This document shows positions 46,511 through 51,918 of a DNA stretch of 64,000 nt, in pieces. The notes beneath the pieces are model-generated. The model did not search any database. It was given only the letters and a program-made list of their open reading frames with translations, and had not been told where the DNA came from. This DNA comes from Hespellia sp. (GTDB lineage: Bacteria > Bacillota > Clostridia > Lachnospirales > Lachnospiraceae), in assembly GCA_028693555.1 (NCBI GenBank), contig JAQUVD010000001.1, forward strand, positions 1 to 64,000, in the 5' to 3' direction. The translations under genes and the position numbers were made by a program. The first letter of the stretch is position 1. The number at the start of each line of letters is the position of its first letter.

Positions 46511-46548
46511 AAAAAAAGAACAATGTCAATTGATTGACACTGTTCTTT
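46511..46548 (-). terminator. Terminator after the DUF5717/DUF5716/TPR genes
   Basis: On the minus strand a 15-bp stem (46534-46548 with 46515-46529, one mismatch) with a four-base loop is followed by a T run. It marks the end of the long unit that may begin at carA. Confidence 0.8.
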
Positions 46549-46557
46549 CCGATCGAT

Positions 46558-47325
46558 TTACGTATGACTTCTGCGGTACTGGTGCTTCCACTTTTCGATC
46601 ACCTTCATGGTGTGTTCTACACGCGTATTTTTCTCGATTTCTTTACACTCCTGATGCATCTCCATGTTCAGATTTGCAAGCTCTTCATCCTTTGTCAGAA
46701 GGATATGATACTCCTCAAGTGACATGTAGCGGTTAGATGCATACAGATAAGATTTCTTTAATTTCGGGTCCTGCAGGATATCATATGCGCGGTCATACAT
46801 CTTGGCAGCCTCCTGATATAAGAACAGCTTTCCATAGGCAGCACCTAAATTGGCATAGATTCTCCCATAGAATCCCTTGTCCACGGATTCATCTGTCTCC
46901 GCCACCAAGATTGACTGATAGACCAAAATTGCTTCTTCTATCTCACCGCTCTCAAGCAGGTTATCCCCTTTGAACTTCTGTCTTTCGATATCCTTCTGAT
47001 TCTTCAGGCGTTCCAGAACATTCTGGATTCGAATCATTTCATTCTCGCCATACATATTGGAATTCGTCAGTATCGTCAGAACAAATTTCTCAATGGAGCC
47101 TCTCATCTGAATCACATCGATTAATTGCTGCGCCAGATTATGAAGTGCCAGCTCCTCGTCAAGCCAGATGCAGAGCTGTTCATTCATAATTGTATAATCA
47201 ATCAGATAAAGATTGTTACACAGATAAAAGCATAATTCTTCTATGGAATATATTTTACAATGGATTCTTGTAATCTCATATGGATGTTTTGCCTGTTTAT
47301 TGTGACAAAGAATTAAACTTCCCAT
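46558..47325 (-). CDS. TPR-like helical protein, third gene of the DUF5717/DUF5716 module
   Basis: A 255-residue protein of unknown function. The N-terminal half, from GSLILCHNKQAKHPYEI to about 95, looks like a compact helical domain. Residues about 118-195 hold at least two TPR-like helix pairs: GDNLLESGEIEEAILVYQSI and YANLGAAYGKLFLYQEAAKM. The C-terminus is helical and charged. There is no signal peptide. A strong AGGAGG site supports the GTTTAATT-proximal ATG at 47323-47325, which lies inside the end of the DUF5716 gene (29-base overlap), so the two are translationally coupled. Confidence 0.8.
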   Translation of the reverse strand: MGSLILCHNKQAKHPYEITRIHCKIYSIEELCFYLCNNLYLIDYTIMNEQLCIWLDEELALHNLAQQLIDVIQMRGSIEKFVLTILTNSNMYGENEMIRIQNVLERLKNQKDIERQKFKGDNLLESGEIEEAILVYQSILVAETDESVDKGFYGRIYANLGAAYGKLFLYQEAAKMYDRAYDILQDPKLKKSYLYASNRYMSLEEYHILLTKDEELANLNMEMHQECKEIEKNTRVEHTMKVIEKWKHQYRRSHT

Positions 47326-48583
47326 CGTTTCCTCCTAAATGAATCGTTCGTGTAACCTCAAAATCAGTCGCCTGGAAAAACTCTCCAAAGCCGATATCCT
47401 TGATTGTAATATCGCATGTTTTCTCATCAATGAACTTTGTTTCAATTTGCAGACGCACAGAATATTCCACTCTGCTTGGAAGCTTGTCAAGCTGGATCTT
47501 TTCTGTCTGAACGGTACCCTGTGTCAGGGATTCCACATGTATTTCGAGTTCATCTGTATCCTGCAGCAGTACCTGCCACTTGTGATTCGACTCATACCAG
47601 TGCGCCCCCCATGCAACGATCGGCACCCATTTATCCTGTCCGTTCACCCGCATTGCAACCGTAATCTGATCCGTCAGCTTACTTTCATCAAGATATACCG
47701 GCGTCTCTGTATTGACCAGCATATTACGGTAAGCTGTGTAGCAGGCGCCTTTACTGTAGAGGTTATTCCCAATAAACGCTCTTCTTCCGTTACAGAGCAC
47801 GCGCAATGACATCGGATACCAGTTATTCTCGAATCCCTCTCCGGTCAGAAATACCGAAGAAACAATTCGCTTATCAAATACGCTTTCCACAAATTTTTTA
47901 AACTGAATATCCGCCTCCTGTGCCTTGTCCTCGTTTAACACCGGATAGACCGCCGCCAGTTCTTTCATATGCGCTCTGGCAACTTCATCAACCGTTACGA
48001 AGGTGGTCTTATTCATTCCAAATTCAGGCTTTAATCTGCGCAGCATATACGCGCACACTTCGTTTCTGTCACAGTAGAATAATGCAGCGTCATACTGCCA
48101 TAGCTCTTTGGGCTGATAAAATAAATAATTGCAAAAACTCTCTTTGTAATCCTGAATGTAAATCTGATCTGAATCAATATTCAATTGAATCGCAATTCTT
48201 CTGAGCAGATCGGCGGTCTTCTTATCAACCGTCGGTACACTGAAAACAATTCCCTCAATATGCTGAAAATCCTGTAGTGACATTTTCACAAAACGATACA
48301 GAAGGTCTTCTGCCTCATAGATTTCGTCGCCAAACCGCACCTGCTCCCCATCAAGACTTCGCGAGAGAAGCTGAGAGGCTGTATACCCCTCCTTGATTGT
48401 CACAAGACGTTTTGCTTCTTTACCGTAAGCCCAGGTTCCCCTGAGATTACTAATAATGAGCGGAATCTGATAGTTATCACTATCGACCTCCAGCGTTACC
48501 GGCTCCACCTGTTGATCATTATAATAACTGATCTGGCAGCTTTTATCACTCAAATCATAACCAATTATCGTTCCCTGTGGCAC
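47297..48583 (-). CDS. DUF5716 family protein, Hsp70/actin-like fold predicted
   Basis: A 428-residue protein of the DUF5716 type, known to me mainly from Lachnospiraceae and without a known function. Its layout suggests the actin/Hsp70 ATPase fold: GYDLSDKSCQISYYN (about 8-22) resembles phosphate-1, DAALFYCDRNEVCAYM (about 166-181) resembles phosphate-2, and SSVFLTGEGFENNWYP (about 242-257) resembles the adenosine motif. The last 120 residues look like an Hsp70-type beta domain. The usual catalytic Asp/Thr residues are only partly matched. Translation starts at GTG after AGGAGGTG. It lies 18 bases after the DUF5717 gene. Confidence 0.78.
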   Translation of the reverse strand: MPQGTIIGYDLSDKSCQISYYNDQQVEPVTLEVDSDNYQIPLIISNLRGTWAYGKEAKRLVTIKEGYTASQLLSRSLDGEQVRFGDEIYEAEDLLYRFVKMSLQDFQHIEGIVFSVPTVDKKTADLLRRIAIQLNIDSDQIYIQDYKESFCNYLFYQPKELWQYDAALFYCDRNEVCAYMLRRLKPEFGMNKTTFVTVDEVARAHMKELAAVYPVLNEDKAQEADIQFKKFVESVFDKRIVSSVFLTGEGFENNWYPMSLRVLCNGRRAFIGNNLYSKGACYTAYRNMLVNTETPVYLDESKLTDQITVAMRVNGQDKWVPIVAWGAHWYESNHKWQVLLQDTDELEIHVESLTQGTVQTEKIQLDKLPSRVEYSVRLQIETKFIDEKTCDITIKDIGFGEFFQATDFEVTRTIHLGGNDGKFNSLSQ

Positions 48584-48601
48584 GTCCGCTCACCTCCTGT
48601 T

Positions 48602-51600
48602 TTATTCGTATAACTTAAACATCTCTGCCGCAATCGCATCTTCTTTTGCATAAATATCCATTCTGCGATCCCGTGCTTCCTCTTTGGAAAGGATCATTCT
48701 GTTTAATTTTCCATAACGTCCTTTTTCCCCTTTTACATGCTTTTTCACACATGTATGAACTTCGCTTGTATATACATTTCCATCGATTGTTTCCTGAAAA
48801 TAATACTTGAGCTTTTCTCTTGCATATAAAATGAATTTCTTCACATAAATTGTATCATACATCGGAAGCAGACTGACTGACTGATATTCTCCGTCTTCCT
48901 CACCGTTTGTAATCTGGTAATACAGCACGACACGGCTGTCTTTCTGTCCCTTATATTCAATTAATGTTTTGTCCCACAATTGGAATTCAAGCAGCCATTC
49001 CTCGTTATACTTCAGATAGAATGGGAAATAAATCTGTCTTGTGCAGAGATCCTGAAGAAATTCCTTAAGCACAGTCTTAAGATTCCCACTGTATTCGCGT
49101 TCTGAATAGTATTTGAGAACTGCAATCTGGCAAATATCCTGAATGAACTCACCCTTTTTATATTCGTTACAGACAATATCAATAATTCCTTTGTGAATCT
49201 TACGGTTTCTTACCACATATTCTCTTGCCACAAAATTCAGATATGCCTGCTGCAGTCGGAAATAAGCTCCCTCCGAATAATAATCTTCAAAGATTCCTTC
49301 CTCTCCGACCAGTTCTTCTGAGAAAAGCATCTGCGTCAGAATTCTTTCTGAGAGCTGATGCGTGTGAATCTCGTATTCCTTTGCTTCCCTCCAGAGCCGC
49401 TTCATCTGCGTTGTTGTCCCGGAAAAGAAATTTGTCAGATATGTCAGCGTAATCTTATCATATTGATCCGCCTTAAATAATTCATAACACAGATAAGTCA
49501 GAAAATCATTGCTGTTATAATTAATCTCACGGATGGTCTTACTGCAGAGCGTAAGCAAATCTTCCTCTTTAAAATTTTCATAGTTTTCTTCCTGAACCAG
49601 TTCCAGCGTAAATTCCTTTTTTTCATTCGCATTCGCCCCGGACTGAAGCGAATTCAAAAAGCGCTTGCACATATCCATATAGCGAAGTTCATAGAACAGA
49701 CGCTTACTCTCATATGGAATTGAGTCCATGAAATGTCTTCCGTCCTTATTCTCCCACACAAGACGATCTGTCTTTGCGTACAAGAATACCTGTGCCCCCT
49801 GTTCTGTGTAGGGCACCTTCTGTGTAATGGTTCCATCTTCCCCAATCACCTGAAGGAACTTCATGTTTGGAACTTTTGTCTTGATTTCATAAGCATGACA
49901 GATATCGTAAAGTGCCTCAATGCGTTTTGGATTCATGACATCTTCCGTTATGAATCGCTTATAAATCACACGGAGCTGTGCATTGATTCTTCGCTTTTCA
50001 AGCTGGTTCCACGCGAAATTCTCCATATCTTCTCGATAATGTGCGTAAATCTCACTTGTCTCATCTTCATTATCAATCAGATTCGAATAAAGAAGCGCAC
50101 ATTTTTGGTAATCCAGAGAATTTCCATGCATAAAATAAAGATAGACCGATCTTGGCAGTGGCTTTTGAAAACGCTCTTCATTAATTGTGAGCATATAGTA
50201 CTCATAGAGCTGTGCAATCTTCAATTCTGAATCGACTGCTTTTTCATACCATTTAAAATATTCCTGTTCCGAACAATTCCCCTTGATCAGCAATGTACAG
50301 ATTGCAGTCAGTATCATAGGCTCTTCAAACATTTTGTAAGCTCCGGCCAGCACGTCATACAAATGTTTGTCAAATTGTTTCTGCTGGCTTGCCAGGTTCG
50401 CGGTATACAGTGCCAGCTCCTTCGTCAGCATTTTGTATTTGAGTGCAAATGCAAGAACATGGACTTCAAATTCTCCAAGGCGTTTCAGTGTATTGCTCTT
50501 CTCCCTGTAGCATTTGTATGCCTCCATGTATAGGGCAACATTGTGCGTTCCCCTGTAATACTGTTGTTCCAGCATGCGTAGTCTCTCGTGAAACAATTTA
50601 AATTCCTGATCGACATTCACTAGCATGCACAAAATCAGGCCATTATCCGGATTTTTCAGATAAGTGCGCGACAATTCCTCCGCAACCTTCCTCTGTCCCA
50701 CAGAATCATTGCTTAACATCGTGGTAAGATAAAGATAATAAGAGCTGAGTTCTACATTCTTTCCGATTGCAAAACGGTTGTAATTATAGGACTCTAAAAT
50801 CCATTTTGCTTCTTCCTGCCGTTGTCCCAGCAGGTTGATATGTGCCTGAATCAAAAGAAACCTTTCGTTTCCTTTGTCTTTTTCGCGAATTGCTTCAATC
50901 TGACGAAGTGCGCTGTCTACCCAGCTATTGAGATCATATTTGCCTGCTTCATAAGCAAGATAACTCTTCAAAAGAGAGGCAAGCTGAATATCAATCAAAC
51001 GGTAATCCTCATCCGCCACTGAACTTGTAGATACCACAACTTCATATGTCAGAGTCTCATATGGCGATTCCAGTATGATCTGTCCGTAATTGTTACCTGC
51101 ATGCAGTTTTTCATGTTTGATGATGTATTCTACACGATAAGAGCTTCCAATAAATTCATCCGTTGTAATTCTACTGTGTTCTACTGTAAGGAAATCCCCG
51201 ACTGTATGGACATCAATTGCCATAAAGCCCCATGTATTTTTTGAAATCGTAAGAATTTCTTTGCGATCTTCGTCTTTTGATGTAAATGCACGACTCTCTT
51301 CCTGCATCATGAGGAATATCTTCTCTTTGTGCTTACAGCCAACCAGGAACTCCTCCAGTGCCTGCTGGTCCAGTTCCCATTTACGCATGTTTTCATAAAG
51401 TGCACGGATACGTTTCTCTTCGTATTTTAAAATCTCATAAAATTCGCGGGAACGAAACAGCTTCTCAGCCTCAGCAAAATCTTTGAATGCCAGCTTCTTG
51501 AAGTCCTCCAGACTCTGTACTTTTCCATAAGCCGTCATCACAAACGGCTTTTCAATAATCGCAGTAAATGCGACCTGATACTCTCCGCCATTACATACAA

Positions 51601-51889
51601 TGGTAAAGGTTCCATGTTCCACATGTCCGGGAAGCAGTCCGTGACCATCATAGGTAAAATAAACATTTACAGGATTACCTTCAAATCCCTGTTCCTCACA
51701 TTGCACACGAAAAGAAGATGGATAGACCAGTCCCCTGATTTTTCCATCTGCCTGATTCTGCAGCGAGAAGCTTCCTTTATATAATTCCCCTTCACCGACC
51801 CGAAGTATGAGTCGGGTTTCCGGAAAAATAATGTCTGGCTTTGAAACCTGAAAATCCCCTTTAGCAAAACGATTAATTTTTGTCTTCAA
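48602..51889 (-). CDS. DUF5717 family protein, very large (1095 residues)
   Basis: A 1095-residue protein of the DUF5717 type with no known function. Residues about 15-115 look like an Ig-like beta domain (IFPETRLILRVGEGELYKGS); a second beta segment is at about 205-285. About 300-900 is predicted to be a long array of helical repeats (SEL1/TPR-like), and the C-terminal 150 residues return to beta structure. There is no signal peptide and no membrane helix. Translation starts at TTG (51887-51889) after AGGTG. Its constant neighbour is the DUF5716 protein, so the two probably form one large complex. Confidence 0.78.
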   Translation of the reverse strand: MKTKINRFAKGDFQVSKPDIIFPETRLILRVGEGELYKGSFSLQNQADGKIRGLVYPSSFRVQCEEQGFEGNPVNVYFTYDGHGLLPGHVEHGTFTIVCNGGEYQVAFTAIIEKPFVMTAYGKVQSLEDFKKLAFKDFAEAEKLFRSREFYEILKYEEKRIRALYENMRKWELDQQALEEFLVGCKHKEKIFLMMQEESRAFTSKDEDRKEILTISKNTWGFMAIDVHTVGDFLTVEHSRITTDEFIGSSYRVEYIIKHEKLHAGNNYGQIILESPYETLTYEVVVSTSSVADEDYRLIDIQLASLLKSYLAYEAGKYDLNSWVDSALRQIEAIREKDKGNERFLLIQAHINLLGQRQEEAKWILESYNYNRFAIGKNVELSSYYLYLTTMLSNDSVGQRKVAEELSRTYLKNPDNGLILCMLVNVDQEFKLFHERLRMLEQQYYRGTHNVALYMEAYKCYREKSNTLKRLGEFEVHVLAFALKYKMLTKELALYTANLASQQKQFDKHLYDVLAGAYKMFEEPMILTAICTLLIKGNCSEQEYFKWYEKAVDSELKIAQLYEYYMLTINEERFQKPLPRSVYLYFMHGNSLDYQKCALLYSNLIDNEDETSEIYAHYREDMENFAWNQLEKRRINAQLRVIYKRFITEDVMNPKRIEALYDICHAYEIKTKVPNMKFLQVIGEDGTITQKVPYTEQGAQVFLYAKTDRLVWENKDGRHFMDSIPYESKRLFYELRYMDMCKRFLNSLQSGANANEKKEFTLELVQEENYENFKEEDLLTLCSKTIREINYNSNDFLTYLCYELFKADQYDKITLTYLTNFFSGTTTQMKRLWREAKEYEIHTHQLSERILTQMLFSEELVGEEGIFEDYYSEGAYFRLQQAYLNFVAREYVVRNRKIHKGIIDIVCNEYKKGEFIQDICQIAVLKYYSEREYSGNLKTVLKEFLQDLCTRQIYFPFYLKYNEEWLLEFQLWDKTLIEYKGQKDSRVVLYYQITNGEEDGEYQSVSLLPMYDTIYVKKFILYAREKLKYYFQETIDGNVYTSEVHTCVKKHVKGEKGRYGKLNRMILSKEEARDRRMDIYAKEDAIAAEMFKLYE

Positions 51890-51918
51890 ACTATTTCACC
51901 TACTTATTTCTTATGTTC

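Follow-up and report, generated by a model that had tools for sequence, protein, structure and literature searches.

Within a 64,000-nucleotide stretch of Hespellia sp. DNA (contig JAQUVD010000001.1, positions 1 to 64,000; hereafter the window), three co-directional minus-strand open reading frames (ORFs) at 46511-51889 encode, in this order, the proteins DUF5717 and DUF5716 and a tetratricopeptide repeat (TPR) protein. Profile alignments, structure prediction and residue counts indicate that DUF5716 is an Hsp70 homologue that has lost its ATPase site, and we consider it probable that the three genes are a reduced, family-wide descendant of an Hsp70/GrpE operon. In this reduced module DUF5716, like yeast Ssz1 a lidless Hsp70, would clamp peptides or serve as a scaffold subunit independently of nucleotide. 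An initial annotation of this DNA had placed the three genes side by side, and both the ORF listing of the window, which has all three on the minus strand, and the Pfam matches agree. The DUF5716 and DUF5717 of the window are ordinary members of PF18980 (DUF5716_C) and of PF18984/PF18983 (DUF5717_N/DUF5717), with bit scores of 337.8 for DUF5716 against a curated cut-off of 34.7, and of 711.3 and 323.0 for DUF5717 against 25. The TPR_12 match of the TPR protein was weak (1.2e-4, under the curated Pfam cut-off), and an NCBIfam scan of the module returned nothing useful. The features of the locus (lengths in amino acids, aa) are:

48602..51889, minus strand: DUF5717, putative scaffold protein, 1095 aa; TTG start; Shine-Dalgarno-like AGGTG at 51897-51901; PF18984 1.9e-213, PF18983 2.3e-96
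47297..48583, minus strand: DUF5716, candidate pseudo-Hsp70, 428 aa; GTG start; Shine-Dalgarno-like AGGAGG at 48593-48598; PF18980 5.9e-101
46558..47325, minus strand: TPR protein, 255 aa; ATG start; Shine-Dalgarno-like AGGAGG at 47331-47336; N-terminal domain, about two TPRs, C-terminal KWxHxYRR
47297..47325, minus strand: overlap of the DUF5716 and TPR genes, 29 bp, from the ORF coordinates
46511..46550, minus strand: stem-loop and T-run that probably close the module as an intrinsic terminator; fold -19.6 kcal/mol, z -6.5, 0/200 shuffles as good

Homology of DUF5716 to Hsp70

Since a single-sequence search of the PDB with DUF5716 returned only noise, a profile of 28 homologues was required. 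In hhalign this profile aligned with a true Hsp70 (Hsp70B of the sister-family operons described below) at 99.8%, with an E value of 1.5e-27 over 409 columns, and with the DUF5716-like proteins of the sister families at an E value of 7.9e-55; it also matched DnaK in the PDB at 7.7e-6. The window protein itself gave no match to PF00012 at E values up to 1, whereas a sister-family DUF5716-like orthologue does match that family (1.8e-14). The AlphaFold2 (AF2) model of DUF5716 had a predicted local distance difference test score (pLDDT) of 72 and a predicted template modelling score (pTM) of 0.71; the alignments used for structure prediction were shallow, their members being about 50-92% identical to the window proteins. 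The model shows two lobes and a C-terminal sandwich of eight strands, all within residues 307-415, and the 50 best Foldseek matches in the PDB listed for it were all Hsp70, Hsp110 or Ssz1, alone or within complexes, the best being 5obv (E 3e-17). As the profile alignments, the predicted fold and the Foldseek matches agree, DUF5716 is, to judge from sequence and model, an Hsp70 homologue with a nucleotide-binding domain (NBD) of the ASKHA type and the fold of the beta part of the substrate-binding domain (SBD-beta). The Hsp70-like beta tail and the place in the Hsp70 superfamily that the initial annotation had proposed are thereby borne out. An actin/MreB-type protein, a polymerising ASKHA ATPase without an SBD, is not what the model shows: SBD-beta is present, and the top structural matches are Hsp70s rather than actins.

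47336..47698, minus strand: SBD-beta-like sandwich, residues 296-416, no alpha lid (AF2 strands; hhalign coverage of the C-terminal part)
47384..47398, minus strand: C-terminal signature D-x-G-[FLY]-G (DIGFG), from the alignment

The alpha lid (SBD-alpha) is absent, the protein stopping 13 aa past the last predicted SBD-beta strand; nor are the sister-operon proteins Hsp70A and Hsp70B long enough for a full lid. DUF5716 ends in ...GKFNSLSQ and has no EEVD tail, so that the classical TPR-Hsp70 partnership suggested for it is not supported. The D-x-G-[FLY]-G signature was found in 49/50 DUF5716, 9/12 DUF5716-like and 6/11 Hsp70B sequences, and in none of 26 DnaK, Hsp70A and Hsp70C sequences. The alignment of 28 DUF5716 proteins was too divergent for a pattern search, for which a closer set of six was used. 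With Hsp70/DnaK (PF00012) DUF5716 thus shares a two-lobed ASKHA NBD and an eight-stranded SBD-beta, and it appears to derive from an operon-borne paralogue that was a true Hsp70; it differs in having no PF00012 match, catalytic lysine, phosphate loops, subdomain IIB or alpha lid, and in its length of 428 against about 600 aa.

Loss of the ATPase site and of subdomain IIB

The residues of the active site were compared in an alignment of 99 sequences, namely the two DnaK proteins of the same genome, 35 Hsp70s of sister operons, 12 DUF5716-like proteins and 50 DUF5716 proteins, with residues numbered as in E. coli DnaK. T11, T12, K70, E171, D194, G196-T199 and D201 are intact in 2/2 of the DnaKs and 35/35 of the operon Hsp70s; the 35 operon Hsp70s also keep K270 and subdomain IIB. 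None of the 50 DUF5716 proteins keeps the equivalent of the catalytic lysine K70, the TT pair (T11/T12), the GGGT motif (G196-T199), E171 or K270, and only two keep that of D201. Subdomain IIB serves Hsp70s as adenosine clamp and GrpE dock; its helix, which carries E267 and K270, is gapped in 50/50, and the segment from the phosphate-2 to the adenosine loop measures 60-79 aa (79 in the window protein), against 144-182 aa in true Hsp70s. Conserved in place of the ATP motifs are a G-x-G-F-...-W loop, a GxxLYxKGA segment and the DxGFG signature. The corresponding sites in the window are:

48536..48565, minus strand: degenerate phosphate-1 loop IGYDLSDKSC (canonical IGIDLGTTNS), from the 99-sequence alignment
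48050..48082, minus strand: degenerate phosphate-2 loop LFYCDRNEVCA (canonical VYDLGGGTFDV), from the 99-sequence alignment
47909..47986, minus strand: approximate site of the missing Hsp70 subdomain IIB (hhalign, segment lengths)
47822..47848, minus strand: degenerate adenosine loop LTGEGFENN (canonical LVGGSTRVP), from the alignment; G248, F251 and W255 are family-conserved

The phosphate-1-, phosphate-2- and adenosine-like segments of the initial annotation therefore stand as positions, but their catalytic residues are gone. Judged by these alignments, DUF5716 has lost the ATPase site, with its catalytic lysine, phosphate loops and subdomain IIB, and would be a pseudo-Hsp70 rather than an ATP-driven machine.

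An eight-gene operon and its probable reduction

In sister families of the order the homologous locus is larger and forms an eight-gene operon in the order DUF5717-N, DUF5717-C, Hsp70A, GrpE-like, DUF5716-like pseudo-Hsp70, Hsp70B, Hsp70C-VWA and TPR. The clearest complete example (L122:1612-15596:-) encodes:

DUF5717-N Ig protein, 388 aa
DUF5717-C solenoid, 900 aa
Hsp70A, 559 aa
GrpE-domain protein, 630 aa, PF01025 7e-11
DUF5716-like pseudo-Hsp70, 523 aa, PF18980 2e-33 and PF00012 1.8e-14
Hsp70B, 546 aa
Hsp70C with a VWA domain, 691 aa
TPR protein, 387 aa

In L122, and also in L110/L050, L120 and L124, the three Hsp70s are catalytically intact and lid-poor, and the GrpE-domain protein has a long helical N-terminal part. 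The operon looks undescribed.

The GrpE-like gene was present in 67 of 72 DUF5717-positive genomes outside Lachnospiraceae and in 0/22 inside. In the family sample, made up of 150 genomes of the Lachnospiraceae type with about one for each genus, no full-length match to the GrpE-like protein was detected, only short partial ones, in ORFs that at 206-276 aa are as long as ordinary GrpE. An Hsp70 search of the window's genome returned two DnaK-type Hsp70s and nothing resembling Hsp70A, B or C, and the family genomes that lack the module carry DnaK-type Hsp70 only. In a maximum-likelihood tree with long branches and a midpoint root, DUF5716 came out as a single clade (100/99) whose sister was the DUF5716-like protein of G441 (100/100), followed by those of G525 and G533. 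The intermediate G441 still has the Hsp70s together with a GrpE-like gene, and its IIB segment is of intact length (140 aa), so that motif decay preceded the loss of IIB, and the loss of IIB coincides with that of the Hsp70s and the GrpE-like gene. This coincidence is meaningful because the IIB side of the DnaK NBD is where GrpE binds. Gene content thus suggests that the Lachnospiraceae module is a reduced descendant of the operon, in which the pseudo-Hsp70, the scaffold and the TPR protein remain. As to the route, we lean towards a transition at the base of Lachnospiraceae, in which the operon shrank to its catalytically dead paralogue as a core machine fixed throughout the family: the pseudo-Hsp70 shed its GrpE-docking lobe IIB when the Hsp70s and the GrpE-like protein were lost and became a nucleotide-independent clamp on a 1,100-residue Ig/solenoid scaffold, an undescribed bacterial counterpart of Ssz1-type Hsp70s.

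A parallel reduction was observed in G451, from another family of the order (L126:2817-7916:+), where DUF5717-N, DUF5717-C and DUF5716-like genes are followed by unrelated genes, for a WecG/TagA-like protein, a membrane protein and SecA; no GrpE-like gene was found in G451. The second DnaK-type Hsp70 of the window's genome (G000:C84:32346-34031:-; L033) has 599 aa and is 62% identical to the main DnaK.

Partner proteins

The AF2 model of DUF5717 (mean pLDDT 82.5, pTM 0.42) has the domain order Ig-Ig-solenoid-beta-solenoid-beta:

51518..51814, minus strand: Ig-like beta-sandwich 1, residues 26-124 (AF2; Foldseek)
51026..51313, minus strand: Ig-like beta-sandwich 2, residues 193-288 (AF2)
49898..51013, minus strand: alpha-solenoid 1, residues 293-664 (AF2; helical hairpins, pLDDT mostly 85-94)
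49700..49894, minus strand: inserted beta domain, residues 666-730 (AF2)
48986..49687, minus strand: alpha-solenoid 2, residues 735-968 (AF2)
48746..48970, minus strand: C-terminal beta domain, residues 974-1048 (AF2)

The N-terminal sandwiches, two solenoids and C-terminal beta domain match the Ig-like ends and long helical array that had been read from the sequence. Foldseek returned Ig-domain proteins of the ciliary central apparatus and SPD-2 domains as the best matches, followed by large helical-repeat scaffolds; these matches to a modelled structure probably mark a scaffold shape and not a family assignment. By comparison with the sister operons, DUF5717 is a fusion of the Ig-like and alpha-solenoid proteins, each of which has a gene of its own in most sister families. 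The similarity of the TPR protein to its 387-aa counterpart in the sister operons (about 1e-10) marks it as the shortened orthologue of that protein.

None of the three window proteins has a transmembrane (TM) segment. Immediately behind the TPR gene, 64/150 family genomes and four sister operons encode a two-TM coiled-coil protein of about 390 aa without a Pfam match (for example L104:7315-8496:+; also L070, L078 and L089); it is absent from the window's genome. This protein may tether the complex to the membrane in about 40% of lineages, not in this one.

Distribution, linkage and constraint

DUF5716 and DUF5717 were each found in 145/150 family genomes, and both in 144/150. The two genomes with a single gene are bins 67-68% complete; neither gene was found in four further family genomes, three of them well completed and the fourth a bin 69% complete. 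A class sample had DUF5716 in 10/10 family genomes and 0/281 others. The co-occurrence of the module genes is far beyond chance. The order DUF5717-DUF5716-TPR was kept in 49/49 further loci read, 48 of them from the family and the last from a bin placed in a different family of the order; five of the 49 have DUF5716 and TPR fused as one ORF of 684-723 aa. The overlap of the TPR gene with the end of DUF5716, noted in the initial annotation, was confirmed and measures 29 bp, and an overlap is kept in 78/78 close relatives. Co-occurrence, adjacency and fusion together uphold the proposal of one co-inherited module; the predicted fold of DUF5716 is related to that of Hsp70 and the three genes do co-occur across genomes, two points on which that annotation had staked its case.

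The closest named relatives by DUF5716 identity are Hespellia sp. (90%) and H. stercorisuis (75%). Against Hespellia STD2_134 the ratio of nonsynonymous to synonymous substitution rates (dN/dS) was 0.026 (DUF5717) and 0.035 (DUF5716), and dS was close to saturation. These ratios point to strong purifying selection; the module is also single-copy and family-restricted. Outside the order, DUF5717 gave only weak, partial matches at class level; no confirmed relative was found in IMG/VR, and a plasmid search for DUF5717 gave no match. Relatives of DUF5716 (27-32% identity) occur on unannotated 'Bacteriophage sp.' contigs from human stool (MT835719.1, MT835486.1, MT835988.1, MT837190.1 and MT837634.1), which are most likely bacterial DNA in phage records. 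In [Ruminococcus] faecis JCM 15917 (L148:2708-7831:+) DUF5717 (630 aa) and the TPR protein (190 aa) are truncated and DUF5716 is intact; sequencing error and real decay are both possible.

Proposed role and alternatives

In the mechanism that we propose, DUF5716 would run no ATPase or nucleotide-exchange cycle and would act constitutively, both as a clamp for a peptide or beta-strand and as a structural subunit, its predicted SBD-beta holding a segment of a partner. The TPR protein would be the direct partner of DUF5716, and DUF5717 the large cytoplasmic scaffold of a constitutive housekeeping complex. Several points weigh against this reading. The AF2 model of DUF5716 is moderate, with a pLDDT of about 50-60 in lobe II, a TM-score to DnaK of about 0.45-0.5 and flexible domains. 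The loss of E171 is alignment-dependent, a conserved ESF lying two columns off, and the equivalents of D8 and G341 are retained in 43/50 and 49/50 DUF5716 proteins, so that weak nucleotide binding is still possible. Formation of a complex is deduced from gene order and fusion, and substrate binding by the SBD-beta of DUF5716 is putative. Hsp70A, B and C are taken to be absent from the family because neither the reads of this locus nor an Hsp70 search of the own and six further genomes turned them up and because the GrpE-like gene is missing; no one-by-one family-wide search was made.

The main rival is a co-chaperone resembling the ribosome-associated complex of yeast, in which DUF5716 and its partners bind clients transiently and pass them to the housekeeping DnaK, with the TPR protein or DUF5717 providing localisation. 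Ssz1 is among the top Foldseek matches of DUF5716; it is a lidless Hsp70 that binds ATP and does not hydrolyse it, has its SBD-beta completed by a partner and does without a classical exchange factor (PMC7083937). Two canonical DnaK-type Hsp70s are present in the same genome. We nevertheless judge such a hand-over unlikely, as Pfam scans of the module and of sister operons showed no J-domain protein, and DUF5716 has lost even the phosphate loops. Ssz1 and DUF5716 are alike in being non-canonical and lidless and in having an SBD-beta, and both would work with an obligate partner and with no hydrolysis cycle or classical nucleotide exchange factor. Ssz1, however, keeps ATP binding and pairs with the J-protein Zuotin at the ribosome, whereas the site of DUF5716 is far more degraded. 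For this reason the likeness is treated as analogy rather than as orthology or membership, and Ssz1 would be the nearest functional analogue of DUF5716.

Less probable is a nucleotide- or ligand-sensing pseudo-enzyme, whose degenerate cleft would hold another ligand or un-hydrolysed nucleotide as a switch. The D8- and G341-equivalents are mostly kept, and the most conserved positions include G248, F251, W255 and those of the GxxLYxKGA segment, but without IIB the adenosine side of the cleft would be open, which makes this reading improbable.

More improbable still is the ATP-driven chaperone or actin-like machine of the initial annotation. The fold of DUF5716 is of the Hsp70 type and the Hsp70s of the ancestral operon are catalytically intact, but K70, TT, GGGT and IIB are gone in 50/50 homologues and no GrpE-like partner was detected in the family. 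Its phrase 'chaperone or scaffold machine' names the right lineage, since the homologous sister operons contain genuine Hsp70s and a GrpE-domain protein; the ATP-driven action is not supported, given the loss of K70, the phosphate loops and IIB.

GAP1-N2 GTPase systems combine HSP70, GrpE and TPR/DnaJ-FNIII proteins (eLife 2020, PMC7159879). A related conflict or defence system is the least probable alternative: the sister operons do join analogous parts (Hsp70, GrpE, a second Hsp70-type protein and a TPR or Ig/FNIII-type repeat protein) and their Hsp70B and Hsp70C match PADLOC PDC-M61B weakly, but the window proteins have no PADLOC match, DUF5717 has no plasmid match, and the role fits poorly because no GTPase or GAP1 component was recognised among the operon and flanking genes scanned with Pfam, in a search limited to the loci read, and because the locus is a near-universal, single-copy, family-wide and vertically inherited core of one order.

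The clamp-and-scaffold reading would give a testable identity to two Pfam families that have no assigned function and are found in nearly all sampled genera of an abundant gut family. The entries PF18980, PF18984 and PF18983 carry no function, and the open literature held no paper discussing DUF5716 or DUF5717 (one unrelated study mentions DUF5716 once), nor the relation of DUF5716 to Hsp70 or the eight-gene operon; subscription papers and preprints were outside the search. With the ancestral operon, an intermediate and the reduced end state all still to be found within the order, the route from an Hsp70 to a non-enzymatic scaffold is open to study, and the joint loss of an exchange factor and its docking lobe makes it possible to ask which parts of an Hsp70 go together. 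Single-copy, family-restricted and under strong purifying selection, the module also makes a promising candidate for a core process particular to this lineage.

Gene starts, terminator and flanking genes

An in-frame TAG immediately 5' of the DUF5717 TTG makes this codon the earliest possible start, and a Shine-Dalgarno-like sequence is present before each of the three genes. The TTG and GTG starts reported initially are therefore real; the low expression read from them is not supported, as DUF5716 begins with ATG in 64/79 close relatives and the non-ATG starts thus reveal little about expression. The stem-loop at 46511-46550 was not picked up by a consensus terminator scan.

The genes that flank the module in the window (carAB, an ABC transporter and purC) are not conserved across Lachnospiraceae, and a tie to nitrogen or purine metabolism was dropped for that reason. 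Downstream of the module, valS is found in several loci of the family and also in three of the sister operons (L103:7597-10422:+, L111:6372-9011:-, L114:5894-8650:-, L115:2003-4645:-); its presence there in both groups supports vertical inheritance of the locus and suggests that the valS neighbourhood is its ancestral location.

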